A DNA stretch of 64,000 nucleotides from Opitutaceae bacterium EW11. GTDB taxonomy: Bacteria > Verrucomicrobiota > Verrucomicrobiia > Opitutales > Opitutaceae. The DNA lies in the NCBI GenBank assembly GCA_003054665.1, contig QAYY01000010.1, positions 62,001 through 126,000 of the forward strand. Direction: 5' to 3'. The translations under genes and the position numbers were made by a program. Positions 50,595 to 61,638 of the stretch are shown piece by piece (positions within the stretch are counted from its first letter, which is position 1; every line of letters begins with the position of its first letter). The notes under the pieces are model-generated. The model searched no databases. It was not told the DNA's origin and saw only the letters and a program-made list of their open reading frames with translations.

Positions 50595-52883
50595 TTACTT
50601 CTCTTCGTAGACCTCGACCAGAGCCACGCCGGTGGTCCCGTTTTTACCGGAGACCTGTGCGGTGTAAGCGCCGGGGGCGAGAGTGAGGACCAGGGCCGCG
50701 TCCTTGCTGCCCGACTTCCAGGCAAAGGCGCTCGTTGCCGAAAAATCGGCCGTGAGTCCCGCCGTCCAGTCGTCGTTCTGCGCGATCTGCGTGCTGCCGC
50801 TGAACACGGTTAGCACCGGATCGGACAGATAGCCGGACACGTTGAACGCATCGAGCGCCGGGCCGGAGGCGCGGATCAGGACTTTTTTGGGCGCGCTTCC
50901 CTTGATGATGAAGCCGGCGATCAGGACCTGGTCGCCGGTCCCGACAAAGCCGCGCGTGGAGATGTTGTAGAGATCGGAGTCCGATTCCTCCTCGTCATCC
51001 GAGCCGGGCCTGGAGGTCGTGACCGTCAGGGTGGCGGCCGAGCTCGTCACGGATCCGCCGGAGTTCGAAACGACCACGGTGTAGCTGCCCGCGTCGGTCG
51101 CCTGGGCGGACGCGATCGTGTAGCTCGAGGCGGTCGCGCCGGAAACCGCCGCACCGTCCTTGCTCCACTGATACGCCAGCGAGGTGCCGCTTGCCGTGAC
51201 CGAGAGAACGACCGTGGTGCCGGCCACGACGGTCGCGCTCTGCGGCTGAGACGCGATCGTGGGCGCCGCCGTCCCCGTGCCCCCGCCTGAGCCGCCGCCC
51301 GTGCCTCCACCGGTGCCGCCACCCGACGTGGAAACCGTGAGTGTCGCGGCGTTGCTGGTGACCGAGCCGGCCGAGTTGGAAACGACGACGGTGTAGCTGC
51401 CCGCGTCGCCGGCGGCCGCCGAGGCGATGGAATAACTGGCCGAGGTCGCGCCCGAGAGCGCGGTTCCGTCCTTCTTCCATTGATACGTGAGCGAGGTGCC
51501 CGCCGCCGTGACGGAGAAGGTGACGCCGCCGCCCGCGGTGATCACGGCGCTTTGCGGCTGGCCAGTGATCGACGGGGCCGTGACCGTGGCCGAAATCGTA
51601 AGCGTGGCGGCCGAGCTCGTCACCGAGCCGGCCGAATTCGAAACGACCACGGTGTAGCTGCCCGCGTCGGTCGACGCGGCCGAGGCGATGCTGTACGTCG
51701 CGCTCGTCGCGCCGGAGATCGCGGTGCCGTCCTTTTTCCACTGATAGCTCAGGGGGGCCGTGCCGTTGGCGGCGACCGAGAAGCTCACCGAGCCGCCGGC
51801 TGTCGCGGTCGCGCTCTGGGGCTGCGTCGTGATCGTCGGCGCCGTGGCGGCAGCGTTCACCGTCAGCGTCGCCGCACTGCTCGTCGCCGAGCCCGCGCTG
51901 TTCGACACCACCACGGTGTAACTGCCGGCATCGGTCGTGGCCGCCGACGCGATACTGTACGTCGCGCTCGTCGCGCCCGAGATCGCGGTGCCGTCCTTCT
52001 TCCACTGATACGTCAACGGCGCGGTTCCCGCGGCGACCACGGAGAAGCTCGCGCTGCCTCCGGTGGTGATAGTGGCGCTCTGGGGCTGCGTGGTAATGGT
52101 CGGCGCCGTCGTGGCGGCGTTCACCGTCAGCGTCGCCGCGTTGCTCGTCGCCGAGCCCGCGCTGTTCGAGACCACCACGGTGTAGTTGCCGGCGTCGGTC
52201 GTGGCCGCCGAGGCGATGCTGTACGTCGCGCTCGTCGCCCCGGAAATCGCCGTGCCGTCCTTCTTCCACTGATACGCCAGCGGCGCCGTGCCGCTCGCGC
52301 CCACGGTGAAGCTGGCCGGGTTGCCCGCCGTGACCGTCGCGCTCTGCGGCTGCGTGGTGATCGACGGCGCGGTGGCCGCCGGGCCGGACACGTTGATGAC
52401 GTAGTTGAACACGGCCGTGGTGCCTCCGGTGGCGCCGGATTTCTCGAACGCCTGAATGGTCACCGTGTAGGCGCCAGCCGTCGTCGGATTACCGTGCAGA
52501 TAGAGGTTCGTCGTGTTGATCGTCCCCGACGAAATGCCTCCCGTGGTTGCGGTCGCCGTGGTGTAGAAAAGCAGGCCGGGCGGCACCGTGCCGCCGACCT
52601 TCCACGATTTCGGAGTCGAAGGAGTGCCCGTGATCGCGAAGGCGAAACTCGCGGCGGTCCCGACCGTGGCCGAAGCAGGGCTGGGCGTGGTGGGGACAAA
52701 CGTGGTCGCCCCGGCCATCGTCTGGACCGCGCCGAGCGCGGCGGCGCTGGCGACAACGGTCTTGAAGACGTCGCCGGTCGGGCGTTCCAGGATGTATTCG
52801 GCATCCTGAAAAAGCACCTTCAGCATCGGCACGCGCTGCAGGAGCGCGAGGAGGAGGAGCGACGGCAGGTTCAGGTGACGCAT
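50595..52883 (-). CDS. surface protein with five tandem Ig-like domains
   Basis: About 762 residues. After a ~60-residue N-terminal segment (VPMLKVLFQDAEYILERP) and a putative-Ig/cadherin-like domain (~65-180), five Ig-like repeats follow, each starting (S/T)ITxQPQSATV(T)AG and containing YQWKKDG and DAGSYTVVVSN. A GGGTGGG linker separates repeats 4 and 5. An acidic linker (PGSDDEEESDSD) leads to a C-terminal ~130-residue domain (LIRASGPALDAF, then AQNDDW and LAPGAYTAQVSG) common in Opitutus-type proteins. It is probably an extracellular adhesion or matrix protein. The start at 52883 (MRHLNLP) is preferred; an upstream start at 53033 would translate a hairpin. Confidence 0.82.
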   Translation of the reverse strand: MRHLNLPSLLLLALLQRVPMLKVLFQDAEYILERPTGDVFKTVVASAAALGAVQTMAGATTFVPTTPSPASATVGTAASFAFAITGTPSTPKSWKVGGTVPPGLLFYTTATATTGGISSGTINTTNLYLHGNPTTAGAYTVTIQAFEKSGATGGTTAVFNYVINVSGPAATAPSITTQPQSATVTAGNPASFTVGASGTAPLAYQWKKDGTAISGATSATYSIASAATTDAGNYTVVVSNSAGSATSNAATLTVNAATTAPTITTQPQSATITTGGSASFSVVAAGTAPLTYQWKKDGTAISGATSATYSIASAATTDAGSYTVVVSNSAGSATSSAATLTVNAAATAPTITTQPQSATATAGGSVSFSVAANGTAPLSYQWKKDGTAISGATSATYSIASAASTDAGSYTVVVSNSAGSVTSSAATLTISATVTAPSITGQPQSAVITAGGGVTFSVTAAGTSLTYQWKKDGTALSGATSASYSIASAAAGDAGSYTVVVSNSAGSVTSNAATLTVSTSGGGTGGGTGGGSGGGTGTAAPTIASQPQSATVVAGTTVVLSVTASGTSLAYQWSKDGAAVSGATASSYTIASAQATDAGSYTVVVSNSGGSVTSSAATLTVTTSRPGSDDEEESDSDLYNISTRGFVGTGDQVLIAGFIIKGSAPKKVLIRASGPALDAFNVSGYLSDPVLTVFSGSTQIAQNDDWTAGLTADFSATSAFAWKSGSKDAALVLTLAPGAYTAQVSGKNGTTGVALVEVYEEK
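51010..52380 (-). repeat. tandem Ig-domain coding repeats
   Basis: Five direct repeats of about 260-270 bp encode the Ig-like domains. Repeats 1-3 are the closest to each other at DNA level, including long nearly identical stretches around the YQWKKDGTAISGATSATYSI codons, which points to recent duplication or gene conversion. Confidence 0.8.
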
Positions 52884-52987
52884 CCGCACGACGAAAGCGC
52901 GGAAACGGGCGAGGCCGGACGGGAAAACGGCGTTTGTCGCGGAAGGGCGGGCCTCGGTGCGGGCCCGCACGGCAAACAGCCGGCGAG

Positions 52988-53011
52988 GCGCCGGCATCCG
53001 TGTGCCGGCGC
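52988..53011. repeat. hairpin between the DUF4266 gene and the Ig-repeat gene
   Basis: Perfect 9-bp arms (gcgccggca / tgccggcgc) with a 6-nt loop, in the 168-bp space between two minus-strand genes. There is no T-run. It could attenuate read-through from the flavinylation-type cluster into the Ig-protein gene. Confidence 0.5.
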
Positions 53012-53051
53012 GAGTGAAGGATAATAGCGCCATTGTGTTTTACTCCAGGGA

Positions 53052-53273
53052 TCAGTTGCAGCCGCAACCGCTTCCGCCCACGCCCCGGCCGCCGGATGCC
53101 GCTTCGCGGGAAAAGAAGATGTGTTCGGAAAGGGAGGTCGCCAGCGGATCGCGATCCGGGCGCATCTCGTAGCTCGCCAGCGTCGCACGCTGCCAGGGTT
53201 GCACGCTGGTGCAGGCGGAGAGGGAGAGCCCCGCGAGGGCGAGGCCGAGGAGGATCAGACGCTGTGGTTTCAT
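53052..53273 (-). CDS. DUF4266-like small lipoprotein
   Basis: 73 residues. A lipoprotein signal peptide with lipobox LSAC (Cys21) is followed by a ~50-residue mature chain with PWQRATLASYEM, DRDPLATSLSEHIFFSREAA and a Gly/Cys-rich end GGRGVGGSGCGCN. The layout matches my recollection of DUF4266 proteins. The C-terminal CxC could bind metal or form a redox pair. It is the last gene of the four-gene cluster and overlaps the thioredoxin-like gene by 4 bp (ATGA, 53270-53273 on the minus strand). Confidence 0.82.
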   Translation of the reverse strand: MKPQRLILLGLALAGLSLSACTSVQPWQRATLASYEMRPDRDPLATSLSEHIFFSREAASGGRGVGGSGCGCN

Positions 53274-53770
53274 GATTTTTCGTCCAGGAGCTGGGAGATT
53301 TCTTTGCGGAGTTCCTCGTCGGTCGTTGGATGGTAACCGCGGTGCACGAAACGCACCTTGCCGGTGCGATCGAGAAGGTAGGAAGTCGGCATCGTCGGGA
53401 CTTGCACCTGCCCGACGAGCTGCTGCTGGGCGTCGCGCACCACTGCGAACTCCGGCTTCATGCGGGAGAGGAACGCTTCATACGCCGGCCGGCGCTCGTC
53501 GACGCTGACGCCGAGAATGCGCAGACCGCGATCGGCATACTCGTGGTGGATCTTGTTGAGCGCCGGGAAGGACGCCTTGCAGGGGCCGCACCACGAAGCC
53601 CAGAAGTCCACGAGCACCACCTTGCCCGCCAGATCGGCGGGAAGCGCGCCTTCGAACTTAACGCGTTCGAGAGCGGGGAAAGCCGCGCCCGGAGTGAGCT
53701 CGGCGCGAACGACGGAGCCCGCGAGCAGCAGGGCGCCAAGTAGGACGTGCAGTTTAGTTTTGAACGACAT
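53270..53770 (-). CDS. TlpA/ResA-like periplasmic thioredoxin
   Basis: 166 residues with a signal peptide (~1-23). The thioredoxin fold has the active site WCGPC (Cys61, Cys64) in DFWASWCGPCKASFPAL and the cis-Pro loop PTMPTSYLLD. TlpA-like proteins reduce or shuffle disulfides outside the cytoplasm, often for metalloprotein maturation. Here it sits between ApbE and the DUF4266 lipoprotein, whose cysteines are an obvious candidate substrate. It overlaps the ApbE gene by 17 bp and the DUF4266 gene by 4 bp. Confidence 0.93.
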   Translation of the reverse strand: MSFKTKLHVLLGALLLAGSVVRAELTPGAAFPALERVKFEGALPADLAGKVVLVDFWASWCGPCKASFPALNKIHHEYADRGLRILGVSVDERRPAYEAFLSRMKPEFAVVRDAQQQLVGQVQVPTMPTSYLLDRTGKVRFVHRGYHPTTDEELRKEISQLLDEKS

Positions 53771-54728
53771 GTTTGAAAAATCCTCGGGTGCGGAAACGCG
53801 TGCCGCTTCCCACCAGCATTCCTTCGGTGCCGAAATGTGACTCGATCATGCGCACCCCCAGCTCGGTCCCCGCGATGAAACTCGCGGTGGAAAGGATGCC
53901 GGCGTGCAGACACGACGGCGCGATCACGGTGGATTGCGCGCAGCCGTTCATGACCGGACGTCCGGTGCGGACGTCGATGATGTGTCCGAAGCGGCGTCCA
54001 CCGAGGGTGAACCCGCGCAAATAGTCCCCCGAGGACGCCATCGCGGCATTCCTCAAGGCGACGCTCTCCCGATGCGAGCCGGGACGATCGGGGTCCTCGA
54101 TCCCGATGTGCCACGCAGGGCGGCCCGGAGGCGCGCCCACCCCGCGAAGGTCGTGGCCGAAATCGACGAGCACGTGGTCGAGCCCGTGCCCCGCGGCGAG
54201 TTCCGCCACGCAGTCGACGGCGTACTCCTTGCCCCAGCCGCCGAAGTCGAGCGCCATCCCCGGCTCGGGGAGGAAGACGCTGCCCGGCCGACGTGCGACT
54301 TTTCGCCAGCCCACCAGGCGTCGGGCGGCATCTATCTCCGCCTGCGTTGGGATCCGCGGCTGGGCCGCCTTGTAGTCCCAGGCTCGCATCAGCGGGAGCG
54401 CAGACGGATCGATCAAGCCTTCCGACGTGCGGAAAACCAGTTCGCAGAGGTCGAGCATCCGGTCCATCTCCGCGTCGACCTCGACCGGAGCCACGCCCGC
54501 CGCGGCGTTGATGCGTGAGACGAGGCTGTCGGGACGGAAACGCGAATAACGCTGCTCGAAGTCGGTCACCCACTGGACGGCGGCGCGCTGAAACGCCTCC
54601 GCCTGACGCGGATCGTCGGTCGCGAACATCAGCACACATTCCGTGCCGAGCGCGCGCCATGCAACGCGCCGGAGGGCGGGTCCGGAGCTCGCCGACGAAG
54701 ACGGCTTGAGCTGTGCGGGGGCCGACAT
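53754..54728 (-). CDS. ApbE-family FAD:protein FMN transferase
   Basis: 324 residues. Family features: ALGTECVLMF at the N-terminus, FGGWGKEYAVDCV (usual GGxxKGYAxD), LVDFGHDLRGVG (usual GGN/D), and GHIIDVRTGRPV with the following STVIAPS. The conserved metal-binding Asp of the AD(A/S)LST motif is Gly277 here (HAGILST), so the active site is unusual. ApbE enzymes attach FMN from FAD to Thr or Ser in target proteins. No clear signal peptide or lipobox is visible at the chosen start. The gene directly upstream, 4 bp away, encodes a protein with the ApbE target motif. Confidence 0.88.
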   Translation of the reverse strand: MSAPAQLKPSSSASSGPALRRVAWRALGTECVLMFATDDPRQAEAFQRAAVQWVTDFEQRYSRFRPDSLVSRINAAAGVAPVEVDAEMDRMLDLCELVFRTSEGLIDPSALPLMRAWDYKAAQPRIPTQAEIDAARRLVGWRKVARRPGSVFLPEPGMALDFGGWGKEYAVDCVAELAAGHGLDHVLVDFGHDLRGVGAPPGRPAWHIGIEDPDRPGSHRESVALRNAAMASSGDYLRGFTLGGRRFGHIIDVRTGRPVMNGCAQSTVIAPSCLHAGILSTASFIAGTELGVRMIESHFGTEGMLVGSGTRFRTRGFFKHVVQN

Positions 54729-54732
54729 GCGC

Positions 54733-55887
54733 TTACCAGCTGAGGCGGGCTCCGACCGTGAAGACGTTGGCGTTGGCGTAGGCGCTCTTCGGCGTGATGC
54801 CGTCGAGGCCCTTCATCAGGTAGCGCTGGTACTCGAAATTGACGTCAAACCGCTCGGGGACGACCTTCCACAGAACCTTGAAACCGAGCGTCTGGGTGCG
54901 CATGTGCGACAGACGGTGGTCCGAGGAGAAAAACGGTCCGTCGGGATTCGGCACGTCGCCCGGCACGATCGAGGTGCCGTTCAGGGTGATGTGGTAGAAG
55001 TCGGCCGCGCTCTGGGTGTACCAGCGGTAGCTCGGCGAGAGCACGATGCGTTCGCCGACGCGCTGGAGCCAGGCCAGGGACAGCGTGTGGCTGTTGATGC
55101 CGAAGCTGTCGTGATAAAACCGATACGAGGCGTCGAGCGCACCATCGAGGCTGGTGAACGCGCGGTTCGAACCGAGGTAAAGCGTCCACTTGTTGCGCTC
55201 GCCCGGGCGGTTCTCGATGAACGTCAGCGGGAGGAAGGTGCCCGCGATCACCTCGGTATCCTTCTCGATGATCTTGTACGGATCGCTCAGGTAGCCGGAA
55301 GCGCGGCCGTAGCTGAGATTGGCCGTGGCCGACCATTCGGGGGAGAGGAGCTGGGTCACGCCGACGATGAAGTCCGAAGCGCGTTTTTTCGCCCATTCCG
55401 GCTGATAGAAGACGTGGATCTTGTCGCGCGTCGTCGCCACGCCCAGAAGCAGCGTCGTGTTCTTCTGGTTGAAGTCCGTCGTCGTGTTCAGCGAGATGCC
55501 GTTGGAGACATAGTCGCTCTCCCGGCTGTTCGCGAGGCCGAGGGAAAGTCCCATCGGACTGAACGCCCGCGAGAACTCGGCGGCCCACGCCTTGCGCTTG
55601 TCGTGCATCTCCGTCAGCGGGACCTGCCCGTCGGCGCCGGCGGGCTCGCCGGTCGGCGTCGCTCCGGAGATCGAGTCGATCACTCCGGAGAGCTTCAGCT
55701 TCACCTCCGCGGGAAGGGATTGATCGATCTCCGCGGCATTGGAATTCACGCGGATGCGATCGCCGCTCTCCTGCCACGACTGGAATTTGTAGCTGGCAGA
55801 GCCTTCCGCGCGCGACGAGCGCGTGACGCTTAGGTAGACGACGGCCGCGCAGAAAACGGCCTTAACCGGGCGGGGGGAAAAACGCAT
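54733..55887 (-). CDS. DUF3570-like outer-membrane beta-barrel with flavinylation motif
   Basis: 384 residues with a signal peptide (cleavage near SSRAEG). The mature chain is rich in alternating beta strands and ends in an aromatic residue (GARLSW), as in outer-membrane barrels of the DUF3570 type. Residues 71-79 read D-S-I-S-G-A-T-P-T, an almost exact match to the ApbE flavinylation consensus D-x-x-(S/T)-G-A-(T/S), with Thr77 as the predicted FMN site; this is encoded at 55651-55677. First gene of the cluster, with a sigma-70-like promoter and an upstream direct repeat. The function is unknown; I infer an envelope redox role. Confidence 0.85.
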   Translation of the reverse strand: MRFSPRPVKAVFCAAVVYLSVTRSSRAEGSASYKFQSWQESGDRIRVNSNAAEIDQSLPAEVKLKLSGVIDSISGATPTGEPAGADGQVPLTEMHDKRKAWAAEFSRAFSPMGLSLGLANSRESDYVSNGISLNTTTDFNQKNTTLLLGVATTRDKIHVFYQPEWAKKRASDFIVGVTQLLSPEWSATANLSYGRASGYLSDPYKIIEKDTEVIAGTFLPLTFIENRPGERNKWTLYLGSNRAFTSLDGALDASYRFYHDSFGINSHTLSLAWLQRVGERIVLSPSYRWYTQSAADFYHITLNGTSIVPGDVPNPDGPFFSSDHRLSHMRTQTLGFKVLWKVVPERFDVNFEYQRYLMKGLDGITPKSAYANANVFTVGARLSW

Positions 55888-56206: not shown

Positions 56207-56485
56207 ATGCACACCGTCTGCCACACCCTCCATCAGCTCGCTGAGACTGCGACGTGTACCACCGTCGCCATTCACACATTCGCGGTAGGCATCGGCTCCA
56301 ACTCAGCGATGGACGGCTCGCTTCGTCGAGTCGCTCTTCTGCGCGTGTTCGGAAGGAATCGTTCAGGTCCGGTCGAACACGCGGCGTTTTTTCCCACGTC
56401 GGCGAATTCGACGCGATGGACCAAATACGTTCTTCCCCGGGGCTCCGTTGACGCACGGCCCCGCTGATCCCGCCGCGTCGGGTGA
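56207..56485 (+). pseudogene. internally deleted remnant of an orphan permease gene
   Basis: Starting at ATG 56207 the translation MHTVCHTLHQLAETATCTTV, then AIHTFAVGIGS, mirrors the start of the intact downstream copies (MHTVRHTLRQLAKTPTFTVV, AILTLAVGIGS) over about 42 residues and then loses homology. Around 56410-56430 ttcgacgcgatggacca resembles a later part of the intact gene. At 56466-56485 gatcccgccgcgtcgggtga resembles the 3' end of the intact copies including the stop codon. So both ends survive and about 2 kb between them is lost. It is the oldest member of the tandem array. Confidence 0.7.
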
Positions 56486-56667
56486 CGCCCCGGCTTCGGA
56501 GAAAACCTGTAACCTACTTTCACGGTTTCAGGTTATCCCCCCTGAAACCGCGGCCGACTGTCTCACGAAATCGCGAGCGGGATGGGAGCGCGGTCCTCTT
56601 GCCGCGCAAGACCGCCATCACGCCTGCCACGCAGCTCTGCTTTCGCGCGCGACAGGCGCCTTCGAAA
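56486..56667 (+). repeat. duplicated leader of permease copy 2
   Basis: About 180 bp before the permease start closely match 59062-59241 before the second copy, including gaaaacctgtaacct, a hairpin-forming element (cggtttcagg ... cctgaaaccg near 56523-56550) and cgcgagcgggatgggagcgc. The leader was duplicated with the gene and may contain the promoter. Confidence 0.7.
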
Positions 56668-59061
56668 ATGCACACCGTCCGGCACACGCTTCGCCAACTC
56701 GCCAAAACACCGACGTTCACCGTCGTCGCGATCCTCACGCTCGCCGTGGGTATCGGCTCCACCGCGGCGATGTACAGCACGTTGCGAGCCCTCGTCGTCG
56801 AGCCGCTCCCCTATCCCGCGTCCGACGAGCTCGTGCAGGTCTGGTCGAACATCCGCCAGCCTTTCTCCCAGCCCGACGCTTTCGACATGATGGACCGCAC
56901 GACGTCGTTCGCCGAGTTGGGCGTCTATTCGCCTCAAGCCGCAAACCTCGGGGGCGAAAAACCGGTATCCGTGCAGAGCGTGTCGTGCACCCCCGGCGTG
57001 CTGCGGGCGCTCGGCGTGGCGCCGGCATTGGGGCGCCTGCTCACGGTCGAGGACGAACAAACGGGCGCTCCGAAAGTCGCCGTGATCAGCCATGAGCTCT
57101 GGCACAAGTCGTTCGGCGGCGACCCGGGCCTGATCGGCCGCACCCTTCGCGTGAACGGCAGCAGCTGCACGGTGGTGGGGATCATGCCGCCTCGTTTTGA
57201 ATTCGTCTCACCGCGGATGCGCACGACCAGCGCCGAAATGTGGGTGCCGCTTCAGCTGAAGCGCGGTGACGGAGATCGCGGCGGCCACTGGCTGTGCATG
57301 GTTGGGCGCCTCAAGCCCGGCGTGTCCGTTGGCGCCGCCGACGCGGAGGTCAAGGCGGTCGGCGCGCAGCTCAAAGCCGATCACCCCGAAACGAACTCGC
57401 AGAAGCCGTTCCTCGTGCATTCGCTGCTCGAGGAGGCTGTGAGCGGAACAGCCTCGCGCGTCTGGCTCCTGTTCGGCTCGGTGCTTCTCGTCCTGCTCAT
57501 CGCGTGCGCCAACGTCGCCAGCATGCTGCTCGCGCGAAACGCGCGCCGCCAGGCGGAGTTCGGCCTGCGTGTCGCTCTCGGCGCCCAACGCCGGGACATC
57601 GTGAAGCTGGCGATGATCGAGAGCCTGATCCTCGCGGCGGGAGGCGCGGTCGCCGGGAGCGCGCTTGCCGTCGTAGGGATTCGGATACTCGCGCTGATCA
57701 CGCCCACCACGGACGGGCGCCGGGCGGCCATGGCGCTCGACGGCAAGGTCCTCGCCTTCACCATCGGGATCGCCGTGGCGGCGGCGCTGCTCGCCGGGCT
57801 CCCGCCCGCGCTCGCCTCGCTCCGATTGTCGATCACGGATCTGCTGCGCGCCGACAGCCGCAACACCACGGGATCGCGAACCCGCCACAATTTCCTGCGC
57901 GGGCTCGTCGTCGGACAGGTCGCGCTCGCCCTGGCACTCGCCAACGGGGCGGCGTTGCTCTCCGGCGGCTACCTCAAGCTGCTGGATGAGAATCGCGCCC
58001 TCTCGACGGAATACGTGCTCGCCGCACGTCTCGACCTCCAGGGAGAACGCTACCAGAAAACCGAAGCACGGGTACAGTTCTGGGAACAGCTCGCCGAACG
58101 CGCGGCCACCCTGCCAGGCGTCACTGCGGCCGGCATCACCTCGAAGCTGCCGCTCGAAGGCGGATCCAACACGAACATCCTGGTGAACGACGAGGTGTTC
58201 GACCCCCTCGCCAAACGCCCTCTCGCCGAGGTTTCCGCCGTCACTCCCGGATATTTCGGTGCAGCGGGGATCGCGATCCTCAGAGGACGCACGCTCGAGC
58301 CGGCCGACGCCAACGGAGACATCATCGGCATCGTCGTGAACCGCGCCCTCGCCGACAAATGCTGGCCCGGCGAAGACCCGCTGGGAAAAATCGTCCGCAA
58401 CAACAGCGCGAAGGCCAGCTTCACCGCCCGCGTGGTGGGCGTGGTCGAAGACGTACGTCAGTGGGGCGCGGACGCCGTTCCCCGGCCCGAAATCTACTGG
58501 TCCCCGAATCGGGCCTGGGGAAACCGCACGTTCATCCTTCTCCGCTCCAATCAGCCCGCATCGCAGCTCACCTCGGCGCTGCGGAAGACCGCCGACTCCC
58601 TCGATCCCGATCTCCCGCTGGCCAGCGTCCGAACACTCGACCAGGTCGTCTCCCAGGCGACGAAAGCCCAGCGCTCCGTGGTCCAGCTGGTCGACTTCTT
58701 CATGTCCGTGGCGCTCGGGCTCGTGGCCGTCGGTCTCTACGGCACCTTGTCGTACCACGTCCTGCAGCGCACTCGGGAGATCGGCGTGCGCATCGCGCTG
58801 GGAGCGACGACGGGAGACGTGCTTCGGTTCGTCTTTCGCCAGGGCCTCGGCTGGGTCCTCGTCGGCGTGGTGATCGGTCTGGGCGGCGCACTGGCTCTGA
58901 CGAGCACGCTCAAGTCGCTCGTCTACGGCCTGGAGTCGGTCGATCCTGCCGCTTTGGCTATGGCCGTCGCCGTGATCGCCGCCGCCACCGCCCTGGCCTG
59001 CTGGATCCCGGCTCGCCGCGCCGCGAAGCTCGATCCCACCGAGGCGCTGCGCGCGTCGTGA
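56668..59061 (+). CDS. orphan MacB/FtsX-type ABC permease (ADOP-like), tandem copy 2
   Basis: 797 residues. N-terminal MHTVRHTLRQLAKTPTFTVV, TM1, MacB-type periplasmic domain, FtsX block (VLLIACANVASMLLARNARR), second half with periplasmic domain and C-terminal FtsX block (GLYGTLSYHVLQRTREIGVR, CWIPARRAAKLDPTEALRAS). There is no cognate ATPase gene nearby. I start it at the ATG aligned with the other copies; the frame is open upstream to 56482 but that part is the shared leader. It is a close paralogue of the next gene, with which it forms a head-to-tail duplication. Confidence 0.88.
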   Translation: MHTVRHTLRQLAKTPTFTVVAILTLAVGIGSTAAMYSTLRALVVEPLPYPASDELVQVWSNIRQPFSQPDAFDMMDRTTSFAELGVYSPQAANLGGEKPVSVQSVSCTPGVLRALGVAPALGRLLTVEDEQTGAPKVAVISHELWHKSFGGDPGLIGRTLRVNGSSCTVVGIMPPRFEFVSPRMRTTSAEMWVPLQLKRGDGDRGGHWLCMVGRLKPGVSVGAADAEVKAVGAQLKADHPETNSQKPFLVHSLLEEAVSGTASRVWLLFGSVLLVLLIACANVASMLLARNARRQAEFGLRVALGAQRRDIVKLAMIESLILAAGGAVAGSALAVVGIRILALITPTTDGRRAAMALDGKVLAFTIGIAVAAALLAGLPPALASLRLSITDLLRADSRNTTGSRTRHNFLRGLVVGQVALALALANGAALLSGGYLKLLDENRALSTEYVLAARLDLQGERYQKTEARVQFWEQLAERAATLPGVTAAGITSKLPLEGGSNTNILVNDEVFDPLAKRPLAEVSAVTPGYFGAAGIAILRGRTLEPADANGDIIGIVVNRALADKCWPGEDPLGKIVRNNSAKASFTARVVGVVEDVRQWGADAVPRPEIYWSPNRAWGNRTFILLRSNQPASQLTSALRKTADSLDPDLPLASVRTLDQVVSQATKAQRSVVQLVDFFMSVALGLVAVGLYGTLSYHVLQRTREIGVRIALGATTGDVLRFVFRQGLGWVLVGVVIGLGGALALTSTLKSLVYGLESVDPAALAMAVAVIAAATALACWIPARRAAKLDPTEALRAS

Positions 59062-59241: not shown

Positions 59242-61638
59242 ATGCACACCGTCCGCCACACGCTTCGCCAACTCGCCAAAACTCCGGCGTTCACCGCCGT
59301 CGCGATCCTCACGCTCGCCGTGGGTATCGGCTCCACCGCGGCGATGTACAGCACGTTGCGAGCCCTCGTCGTCGAGCCGCTCCCCTATCCCGCGTCCGAC
59401 GAGCTCGTGCACGTCTGGTCGAACGACGGGCAGCCGCTCTCGCAACCCGACACGTTCGACGTGATGGATCGGTCGACGTGTTTTGCGGAGCTGGGCGTCT
59501 ACTCCCCTCAGGCGGCGAATCTGGGAGGCGAAAAGCCGCAGTCCATCACGAGCGTCTCCTGCACTCCGGGCGTGCTGCGGGCTTTAGGCATCGCGCCGGC
59601 GCTCGGGAGGCTGCTCACGGACGCCGACGAAAAACAGGGCGCTCCCTCCGTTGTGGTGATCGGCGATGCGCTTTGGCACAACAGCTTCGGCGGCGATCCG
59701 CACATCCTTGGCCGGGATATCCGTGTGAACGGAGCCAATACGACGGTGGTCGGAGTGATGCCGCCCCATTTCGAATTTGCATCGCCGTGGATGCGCACGC
59801 TCAGCGCTCAGATGTGGGTGCCGCTTCAGCTGAAGCGCGGCGACGGCGACCGGGGAAGCCACTGGCTGTGCATGGTCGGACGTCTCAAGCCGGGGGTGCC
59901 CGTCGCGACCGCGGATGCGCAGATCAAGGCGATCGGCGCCCAGCTCAAGGCCGAGTATCCAAAATCCAATGCGCGGAAGCCTTTCCTCGTCCGCCCGCTG
60001 CTTTTCGAAGTCACGCGGGGCACGGCTCCGCGCGTCTGGCTCCTCTTCGGCGCGGTGGTTCTCGTCCTCCTCATCGCCTGCGCCAACGTCGCCAGCATGC
60101 TCCTGGCGCGAAACGCCCGCCGCCAGGGCGAGTTCGGGATCCGCGTCGCGCTCGGAGCGCTGCGGCGCGACATCGTGAAGCTGACGCTGATCGAAAGCAC
60201 GCTGCTGGCCGCCGGAGGCGCGGTGGGAGGTTCCCTCCTGGCCGTCGTCGGCACGCGCGTCCTGGCGATGATCGCGCCGGTCACGGCCGAACGCCGGGCC
60301 GCCATGGGCCTCGACGGAGGCGTGCTCGCCTTCACCGTCGGCGTGGCCCTGATCGCGGCGCTGCTCGCCGGCCTGCCTCCGGCACTGGCGTCGCTGCGCC
60401 TCCCGGTGACCGAGCTGCTGCGCGCCGACAGCCGGAGCACGACCGGCTCCAGGACCCGTCACAATTTCCTCCGCGGGCTGATCGTCGGCCAGGTGGCGCT
60501 CGCCCTCGCCCTGGCGAACGCCGCCGCGCTTTTCTCCGCGGCGTACGTGAAGCTCCTTCAAGTCAACCGGCCGTTGGCCACCGAATACGTGCTCTCCGCC
60601 CGGATCCAGCTTCGCGGCGAACGCTACGACAAGCGGGAGACCCGCGCGCAGTTCACCGAGCAGATCGCCGAACGGGTCGCGGCGCTTCCCGGCGTCAGTG
60701 CCGCCGGCACGACGAACAAGCTCCCGCTCGAGGGCGGCTCGAACATGACGATCCTGGTAAACGACGAAACGTTCGATCCTACCGCCGAACGCATTCTCGC
60801 CGAGGTCTCCTCCGTCACTTCGGGTTACTTCCAGGCTGCGGGCATCGCGCTCCTGCGCGGCCGCACCCTCCAGCCGTCCGACGCGGAGGGGGAAAACCCC
60901 GGGATCGTGGTCAACCGCGCGTTCGCCGAAAAGGCGTGGCCCGGCGAAAATCCATTGGGAAAACCCGTCCGCCAAAACTCGGACAAGCCCGAGTTCACCG
61001 CCCGCGTGGTCGGCGTGGTCGACGACGTCCGCCAATGGGGTCCGGAAACCCCGGCCCGGCCCGAACTCTACTGGTCGCCCAACCGCTCCTGGGGCAGGTA
61101 CCTGTTCATCGTGCTTCGCTCGACCCAACCCGCCTCGCGGTTCGCGCCCGAGATTCGCCATGCGCTGGACTCGCTCGATCCCGACCTGCCGCTGGCCGAC
61201 GTGCGAACGCTGCAGCAGGTGGTCGACCAGGCCACGCAGGGCCAACGCGCGATCGTCCAGATGATCGACTTCTTCATGGCCCTCGCCCTCGGACTCGTCG
61301 CCGTCGGGCTCTACGGCACCCTGTCGTACCACGTCCTGCAACGCACCCGGGAAATCGGCGTGCGGGTCGCCCTCGGAGCGACGGCGGCGGATGTGCTCCG
61401 GCTCGTCTTTCGCCAGGGCCTCGGCTGGGTGCTCGTCGGCGCGGTTCTCGGCCTGGTCGGTGCACTCGCCCTGACGAGCACGCTGAAGTCGATCGTGTAC
61501 GGCATGGAATCGGTCGATCCCCTCTCCCTCGCGATCGCCGTCGTCGTGATCGCCGCCGCCACCCTCCTGGCTTGCTGGATCCCCGCTCGGCGCGCCGCAA
61601 AGCTCGACCCAACCGAGGCCTTGCGCGCGACGGGATGA
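59242..61638 (+). CDS. orphan MacB/FtsX-type ABC permease (ADOP-like), tandem copy 3
   Basis: 798 residues with the same architecture as the previous gene and very high similarity along the whole length (for example identical HTLRQLAKTP, AVGIGSTAAMYSTLRALVVE and KLDPTEALRA segments). Divergence is concentrated in the periplasmic parts, as expected for duplicated permeases that have begun to specialise. There is no ATPase partner in the window. Likely an inner-membrane protein that acts on the periplasm, by export, mechanical coupling or signalling; not determinable. Confidence 0.88.
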   Translation: MHTVRHTLRQLAKTPAFTAVAILTLAVGIGSTAAMYSTLRALVVEPLPYPASDELVHVWSNDGQPLSQPDTFDVMDRSTCFAELGVYSPQAANLGGEKPQSITSVSCTPGVLRALGIAPALGRLLTDADEKQGAPSVVVIGDALWHNSFGGDPHILGRDIRVNGANTTVVGVMPPHFEFASPWMRTLSAQMWVPLQLKRGDGDRGSHWLCMVGRLKPGVPVATADAQIKAIGAQLKAEYPKSNARKPFLVRPLLFEVTRGTAPRVWLLFGAVVLVLLIACANVASMLLARNARRQGEFGIRVALGALRRDIVKLTLIESTLLAAGGAVGGSLLAVVGTRVLAMIAPVTAERRAAMGLDGGVLAFTVGVALIAALLAGLPPALASLRLPVTELLRADSRSTTGSRTRHNFLRGLIVGQVALALALANAAALFSAAYVKLLQVNRPLATEYVLSARIQLRGERYDKRETRAQFTEQIAERVAALPGVSAAGTTNKLPLEGGSNMTILVNDETFDPTAERILAEVSSVTSGYFQAAGIALLRGRTLQPSDAEGENPGIVVNRAFAEKAWPGENPLGKPVRQNSDKPEFTARVVGVVDDVRQWGPETPARPELYWSPNRSWGRYLFIVLRSTQPASRFAPEIRHALDSLDPDLPLADVRTLQQVVDQATQGQRAIVQMIDFFMALALGLVAVGLYGTLSYHVLQRTREIGVRVALGATAADVLRLVFRQGLGWVLVGAVLGLVGALALTSTLKSIVYGMESVDPLSLAIAVVVIAAATLLACWIPARRAAKLDPTEALRATG

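Follow-up and report, generated by a model that had tools for sequence, protein, structure and literature searches.

A DUF3570 flavinylation module with a putatively cytosolic ApbE and a candidate Ig-like partner in Opitutaceae bacterium EW11

Background

A flavinylation gene cluster encoding a DUF3570 protein, an ApbE flavin transferase, a thioredoxin-like protein and a DUF4266 protein was described by Meheust et al. 2021 (PMC8238504). The passages of that paper on the module present DUF3570 as the ApbE substrate and report that DUF3570 of Chlorobium luteolum is flavinylated by its cognate ApbE, the modification being lost only when both of its motifs are mutated; DUF3570 was found with DsbD in 227 clusters, and the same four genes without DsbD in 316 clusters. 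Here we analyse a cluster of this type in a 64,000-nucleotide stretch of the genome of Opitutaceae bacterium EW11 (contig QAYY01000010.1, positions 62,001 to 126,000; hereafter the window), in which the same four genes lie on the minus strand. The window cluster differs from the published module in that its DUF3570 carries a single motif rather than two, no DsbD gene lies within the cluster, the thioredoxin is of the Redoxin/TlpA type and an immunoglobulin (Ig)-like fifth gene follows.

The original prediction had left open whether surveys of ApbE-linked clusters already list this module. They do, and the module as an unpublished system is ruled out by PMC8238504; the idea is published and flavinylation is partly proven in a homologue, and no mention of DUF3570 or DUF4266 was found outside that paper in the literature searched. 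As far as its passages go, what is new here is a putatively cytosolic ApbE clade (termed E/G), the predicted placement of the flavin on an extracellular loop and the Ig-like partner (family Ig_N); those passages hold no mention of a cytosolic ApbE, of an exchange of the catalytic Asp for Gly or of loop placement.

In the relevant parts of a review (PMC12052999), the ApbE target motif is given as D-x-x-[S/T]-G-A-[S/T] and the catalytic triad of Vibrio cholerae ApbE as Asp285-Ser241-His257. The same source describes the ApbE of Klebsiella pneumoniae fumarate reductase, which is cytosolic and, like the window enzyme, has no signal peptide; it acts on a soluble fumarate reductase, whereas the window substrate would be exported to the outer membrane. 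The FMN_bind proteins NqrC and RnfG share with the window system an ApbE, the D-x-x-[ST]-G-A-[ST] motif and flavin mononucleotide (FMN) in phosphoester linkage, and differ in fold and place. Membership of that class was rejected, as no FMN_bind (PF04205) protein was found in the window genome at E 0.001 and the window DUF3570 matched only PF12094 at E 1 or less. Exported proteins are usually said to receive their flavin in the periplasm, a step for which flavin adenine dinucleotide (FAD) must be available outside the cytosol. Porin-cytochrome conduits of the MtrCAB type move electrons over the outer membrane by way of a barrel, as the window module would; the latter would rely on flavin and thiols, and no haem motif (CxxCH) was seen by eye in its four translated proteins. 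The multi-flavinylated protein class and a haem conduit were both considered and dropped.

We regard it as somewhat probable that, taken as a whole, the window module works by cytosolic flavinylation of the DUF3570 chain, its export, display of the flavin at the outer face of the barrel and outward passage of thiol electrons.

Gene content and layout of the module

On the minus strand the gene order is DUF3570, ApbE, TlpA-like, DUF4266 and the Ig-like gene. The first encodes a predicted outer-membrane beta-barrel of 384 residues, the presumed FMN carrier (54733..55887; PF12094, E 1.5e-69, 235 bits against a cut-off of 25). It is followed by an ApbE of 324 residues without signal peptide (53754..54728; PF02424, E 4.5e-68, 230 bits against 25.6), a TlpA/ResA-like thioredoxin with WCGPC and a signal-peptide-like N-terminus (53270..53770; Redoxin, E 1.2e-18), and a DUF4266 lipoprotein with the lipobox LSAC and a C-terminal CGCN (53052..53273; PF14086, E 1.3e-22, 81 bits). 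Spacing is operon-like, with a gap of 4 bases between DUF3570 and ApbE and overlaps of 17 and 4 bases at the ApbE/TlpA and TlpA/DUF4266 junctions. Profile matches and open reading frame (ORF) coordinates thus bear out the four genes, their order and their overlaps as originally predicted. The proposed extent, 53052-55887, holds for these four and stops short of the fifth gene (50595..53033, minus strand), which starts 18 bases after DUF4266, encodes a secreted Ig-like repeat protein and appears to belong to the cluster.

DUF3570 matches were present in 71 of the 274 genomes searched, and 40 regions were taken. Additional genes recurring across the proteobacterial loci (L174-L206) were also sought, with DUF4266 mostly below the length limit. 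This returned the known families (DUF3570 in 33, TlpA in 28 and ApbE in 24 loci) and a few groups spanning 4 to 10 loci, several of which are antisense-looking ORFs.

Conservation of the flavinylation motif in DUF3570

The window DUF3570 carries D-S-I-S-G-A-T-P-T at residues 71-79 (55651..55677, minus strand), as had been pointed out from the sequence, and residues 71-77 are a full match to the ApbE consensus, with FMN presumed on Thr77. In 20,000 shuffled versions of the protein the full motif arose in 0.3% and a bare [ST]GA[ST] in 6.6% of trials. The proposal that the barrel is an ApbE substrate, with the Thr of SGAT as the expected site, is upheld by the flavinylation of a homologue in the module passages of PMC8238504.

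In an alignment of 79 DUF3570 proteins, which omits the partial proteins of L042, L044, L100 and L102 and in which L048 and L205 appear to represent a single protein of one genome, the site reads [AST]GA[ST] in 67 (strict [ST]GA[ST] in 53, AGAT in 14), SSAS or TSAS in 6 and otherwise in 6, and the acid position is D in 73 and E in 6. A single motif is usual among the window's closer relatives; in several other proteins, such as those of L047, L048, L201, L202 and L206, another follows 11 to 40 residues later in the same loop. The six SSAS/TSAS proteins either have no ApbE within 3 kb (four) or stand with a secreted canonical ApbE (two). As a side observation, L207-L213, from the class to which the genome of L048 belongs, form a DUF3570 subgroup with SSAS/TSAS in six of seven and no apbE nearby in five of seven; the two loci with apbE (L210 and L211) both have the secreted canonical type.

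Conservation of S-G-A-T only beside apbE, which the original prediction put forward as a check, was not found, the motif being kept also in loci such as L031, L043, L080 and L093, where the stretch examined holds no apbE. At the level of whole genomes, among 57 relatives of the window genome, ApbE matches were present in all 21 genomes with DUF3570 and in 17 of the 36 without it (p 1.9e-5).

Barrel model and predicted position of the flavin

The window DUF3570 has a signal peptide at about residues 1-27 (by eye) and ends in RLSW, with Trp as its final residue. AlphaFold2, given the mature protein and 18 homologues (19 proteins in all, the window's and matches from related loci, two partial ones omitted), returned a model with a predicted local distance difference test (pLDDT) value of 93.9 and 18 strands of at least 8 residues. 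An even strand number, a signal peptide and an aromatic C-terminus are features of BAM-type barrels, and the confident model agrees with the earlier description of DUF3570 as an outer-membrane barrel. A Foldseek search of the PDB gave 511 matches at E 0.001 or less, the best 50 of which are generic outer-membrane barrels; among the matches listed, the template modelling score by query length was at most 0.58 and no functional lead appeared.

In outer-membrane barrels the two termini are periplasmic, the final residue is aromatic and the long loops lie outside. Loops after odd strands measure 5, 21, 2, 8, 7, 5, 4, 36 and 12 residues in the model, those after even strands 3, 2, 4, 2, 2, 4, 3 and 3 (odd longer, p 0.003), and because both termini should be periplasmic and the protein ends in Trp, the odd loops are placed outside the cell. 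The gammaproteobacterial DUF3570 of L048 was modelled with 16 long strands, that is one hairpin fewer, at pLDDT 81, again with longer odd loops (p 0.008). Among the 79 homologues the large variation in length lies in odd loops, the even ones varying little (standard deviation 2.1 or less), and it is widest in the loop that bears the motif, from 14 to 101 residues. The motif forms the end of strand 3 and the start of loop 3-4 in the model, and so should lie on extracellular loop 2, with the flavin on the outer face. By this model a periplasmic enzyme could not reach the motif once the barrel had folded, and a cytosolic enzyme acting before export would not need to.

Lack of recognisable signal peptides in most linked ApbE proteins

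The window ApbE has no in-frame start upstream of Met1 and no hydrophobic N-terminus. Under a simple signal-peptide rule of our own making, tried on every possible start, none of 28 DUF3570-linked ApbEs scored, against 14 of 39 other ApbEs of the window's relatives (Fisher p 1.7e-4). The 28 comprise the window protein, 25 from relatives, one from Planctomycetota and one from Burkholderiales, and linked means on the same strand with centres within 1600 bases (1900 for the proteobacterial and E/G counts below). The same rule scored 34 of 43 DUF3570, 33 of 36 TlpA and 34 of 35 DUF4266 proteins. Of the 25 linked proteobacterial ApbEs, among which the fragments of L187, L202 and L204 were retained, two scored as secreted, both canonical and beside an SSAS-type DUF3570; the ApbE of L174 was counted as unlinked, being adjacent to a DUF3570 ORF that is very long.

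Since the linked ApbEs have no recognisable signal peptide, the enzyme would probably stay in the cytosol and the flavin would probably be added there before export, and therefore accessibility after barrel folding is probably beside the point. Alternatively, flavinylation might take place in the periplasm on the exported, still unfolded chain, either by a linked ApbE that leaves the cytosol by a route not recognised here or by a different ApbE of the cell that is secreted. Most of the ApbEs characterised so far are secreted lipoproteins, according to the relevant part of PMC12052999, and canonical ApbEs with a scoring signal peptide also occur in some DUF3570 genomes (for example L105, L106, L111 and L113). 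We consider this route improbable, given that all 28 linked proteins lack a scoring signal peptide, that in genome G015 the sole ApbE match is the linked, non-scoring one (L082), and that the one further ApbE encoded in the window genome scores none either. The latter (L137, 1471-2544, minus strand, contig C45) is of canonical type with no obvious signal peptide, and no FMN_bind protein that might serve as its substrate was found in the genome.

A clade of ApbE proteins with an altered catalytic triad

For the ApbE comparison 58 of 79 match rows were used, the 21 weaker ones being set aside; the partial domain of L139 and the second fragment of L187 were left out of all ApbE counts, and the fragments of L187, L202 and L204, in which a site is missing, out of the E/G counts. 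Alignment to V. cholerae ApbE (chain 6nxi_A, its numbering matched through His257 and Ser241) shows that the window protein keeps two residues of the triad, as Ser233 and His249, and has Gly277 (53898..53900, minus strand) at the place of catalytic Asp285. In the same alignment, which includes PDB chains, Glu168 (54225..54227, minus strand) stands where most canonical ApbEs have Gly. The two sites change together: Glu with Gly occurs in 55 sequences, Gly with Asp in 27, other pairs in 8 and Glu with Asp in none. Linked ApbEs typically read GG[FWI]GKE and C..AG..[SA]T, others mostly having Gly/Asp, as in GGIAKG and ..ADALAT. In a tree of 91 rows a branch supported at 100/99 separates the E/G proteins from all others, and a signal peptide was scored in none of the 55 with both sites covered, against 16 of 35 others.

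The loss of the triad Asp could mean that E/G ApbEs are FAD hydrolases or inactive relatives and that SGAT is structural. All 55 E/G sequences covering both sites have Gly in place of the Asp, and one relative, treponemal Ftp, hydrolyses FAD (abstract of PMC4767422). Yet in every one of the 55 a Glu appears near the lost Asp, and the equivalents of His257 and Ser241 are kept in the linked ApbEs wherever covered (28/28 and 23/23). The motif acid and GA are moreover conserved in DUF3570, and in the module passages of PMC8238504 the C. luteolum protein is flavinylated by its cognate ApbE. We judge loss of transferase activity very unlikely. The paired exchange is a natural experiment on ApbE catalysis and offers a two-residue test for the clade.

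The link between E/G ApbEs and DUF3570, as seen in this comparison, is strong and not perfect. A further observation is that the E/G ApbE of genome G013 (L119) stands in a genome with no DUF3570 match, and another substrate may exist there.

Proposed course of flavinylation and electron transfer

Under the preferred reading, the dedicated cytosolic ApbE would use cytosolic FAD to place FMN on Thr77 while the DUF3570 precursor is still unfolded and not yet exported by Sec. Once flavinylated, the chain would reach the outer membrane and form an 18-strand barrel (16 in the distant homologue), its flavin lying at the upper end of strand 3, on extracellular loop 2. In the periplasm, a TlpA-like thioredoxin, which may be reduced via a DsbD encoded elsewhere in the genome, and DUF4266, whose CGCN tail, rich in glycine, could extend to the barrel, would pass thiol electrons to the flavin and onward to something outside the cell. 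The early steps draw on comparative evidence; we infer the electron steps, as well as the order of events, the loop orientation, the electron route and the acceptor.

Sec is reported to pass bulky groups attached to chains; if the proposal is true, it would pass an FMN-bearing chain, export of FAD would not be needed and the flavin could sit on an extracellular loop beyond the reach of periplasmic enzymes after folding. Judged from its listing, the literature search returned apparently no paper treating flavinylation of an unfolded chain before export through Sec.

Several observations weigh against this proposal. AGAT, outside the strict motif, occupies the site in 14 of the 79 DUF3570s, and proteins with no adjacent apbE keep the motif too. 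The signal-peptide rule is crude, 25 of the 39 unlinked ApbEs scoring negative as well, and the linked ApbEs have no triad Asp, so that their activity is assumed. The G013 genome, with an E/G ApbE and no DUF3570, is nearly complete, and in G028 (84% complete) DUF3570 is accompanied by a canonical ApbE as the sole match. As to the barrel, its orientation in the model follows from the terminus and loop-length rules, four odd loops show no length variation among the 79 homologues, parts of the L048 motif loop fall below pLDDT 50, and a long motif loop could fold into the lumen. Finally, no DsbD lies within the window cluster.

The thioredoxin fold of the window TlpA-like protein is clear (Redoxin, 67.8 bits), the type published for the module, PF13899, reaching only 14.3 bits against a cut-off of 27. 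One DsbD_TM protein exceeded the cut-off in the window genome, on another contig (C11). TlpA (WCGPC) and the DUF4266 tail (CGCN) would be the likely reductants of the flavin. They might alternatively serve metal handling or disulfide maintenance beside a flavinylated barrel whose flavin is a sensor, an oxidase or a metal reductase and not a wire, and CxC tails and TlpA-like proteins are known in copper handling too. A VIT1 ferrous-iron transporter occurs in 25 gene clusters (module passages of PMC8238504), which also favours such a role. Little speaks against it, metal genes around the module not having been searched for systematically; the finding that the trio of TlpA, DUF4266 and DUF3570 remains intact in loci without a detected apbE fits a thiol function of the three and does not decide the matter. 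We hold this role to be rather unlikely.

An Ig-like family associated with DUF3570

The fifth gene encodes Ig domains behind an unusual N-terminus, which reads R-x-R-W-L-x-x-P-A-x-L-L-x-x-L-L-Q-R-T-P, then a second hydrophobic stretch and then [AST]-G-A-[TS]. Comparison with homologues makes Met52, at 52880, the likely start of the window protein, and its conserved GA[TS] (QTMAGAT, 52704..52724, minus strand) emerged from an alignment census as a candidate second ApbE site. Searches used an alignment of about 75 N-terminal residues with 28 rows, drawn from loci next to DUF3570.

Ig_N was found in 21 of the 57 relative genomes, 20 of which have DUF3570 (both families in 20, neither in 35, one only in 2; p 3.6e-13). 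The two exceptions are G014 (81% complete), with Ig_N only and an E/G ApbE, and G031 (87% complete), with DUF3570 only. Once the 14 genomes that contributed rows to the alignment were removed, as far as locus handles show the genome of origin, Ig_N remained in six of seven DUF3570 genomes against 1 of 36 others (p 7.9e-6), and in several of those six it lies on another contig or some kilobases off, not beside DUF4266. Around 39 DUF3570 genes of at least 350 residues (loci of the window's relatives and L046-L048, some stretches being short), Ig_N lay on the same strand within 2 kb downstream in 27, upstream in 2 and nowhere in the stretch in 10.

Ig_N is a candidate client for an otherwise unexplained module in the window's relatives, and its GA[TS] is perhaps a second ApbE target. 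The plain alternative, that GA[TS] is a mere signal-peptidase site and Ig_N a passenger of the locus, seems to us an even call. The motif comes after a hydrophobic stretch, and among 51 Ig_N N-termini Ala precedes GA[ST] in 33, the acid position is D in only 7 (H in 31, N in 6, Q in 6, F in 1) and SAA[STA] replaces GA[ST], present in the other 45, in 6. Against this alternative stand the co-occurrence with DUF3570 (20/21 against 1/36 genomes), which holds with the alignment-source genomes removed, and the fact that the 28-row N-terminal alignment has only four invariant columns, A63 and T64 among them. In addition, Ala precedes GA in Ig_N whenever it does so in the DUF3570 of the same locus (11/11), and otherwise in 8 of 17 (DUF3570/Ig_N pairs: A/A 11, A/ST 0, ST/A 8, ST/ST 9; p 0.004, ignoring kinship), which suggests that one ApbE may read both motifs.

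A broader proposal, unlikely as it stands, would have an E/G cytosolic ApbE lineage, its catalytic acid moved between loops, flavinylate surface-bound proteins, both DUF3570 and Ig_N (the latter at [HDNQ]-x-x-[AST]-G-A-[TS]), so that covalent flavins on the outer face, fed by periplasmic thiols, would form a metal-free electron route across the outer membrane. No literature combining Verrucomicrobia, ApbE and immunoglobulin was found.

The inner SGATs of the fifth gene (residues 199, 264, 352, 440, 527 and 631) were rejected as evidence, none having Asp at the acid position; five of the six occupy like places of the Ig repeats, a repeat that we take to be common in Verrucomicrobia. The window genome encodes a second Ig_N away from the module (L236, contig C21, 3612-5369, plus strand) with DTLAGAT, that is D-x-x-A-G-A-T. 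Loci L040 and L041 show two tandem DUF3570-TlpA-DUF4266 sets with no apbE in the stretch; their DUF3570s keep [SA]GATP, and each set is followed by an Ig_N-like protein with SAAT or SAAS in place of GAT.

Neighbouring genes in the window

Beyond the module, the ORF list of the window contains two tandem, similar ORFs of about 800 residues on the plus strand (56482-59061 and 59242-61638), which by eye resemble ABC permeases of the MacB/FtsX type and are transcribed away from the flavinylation module.

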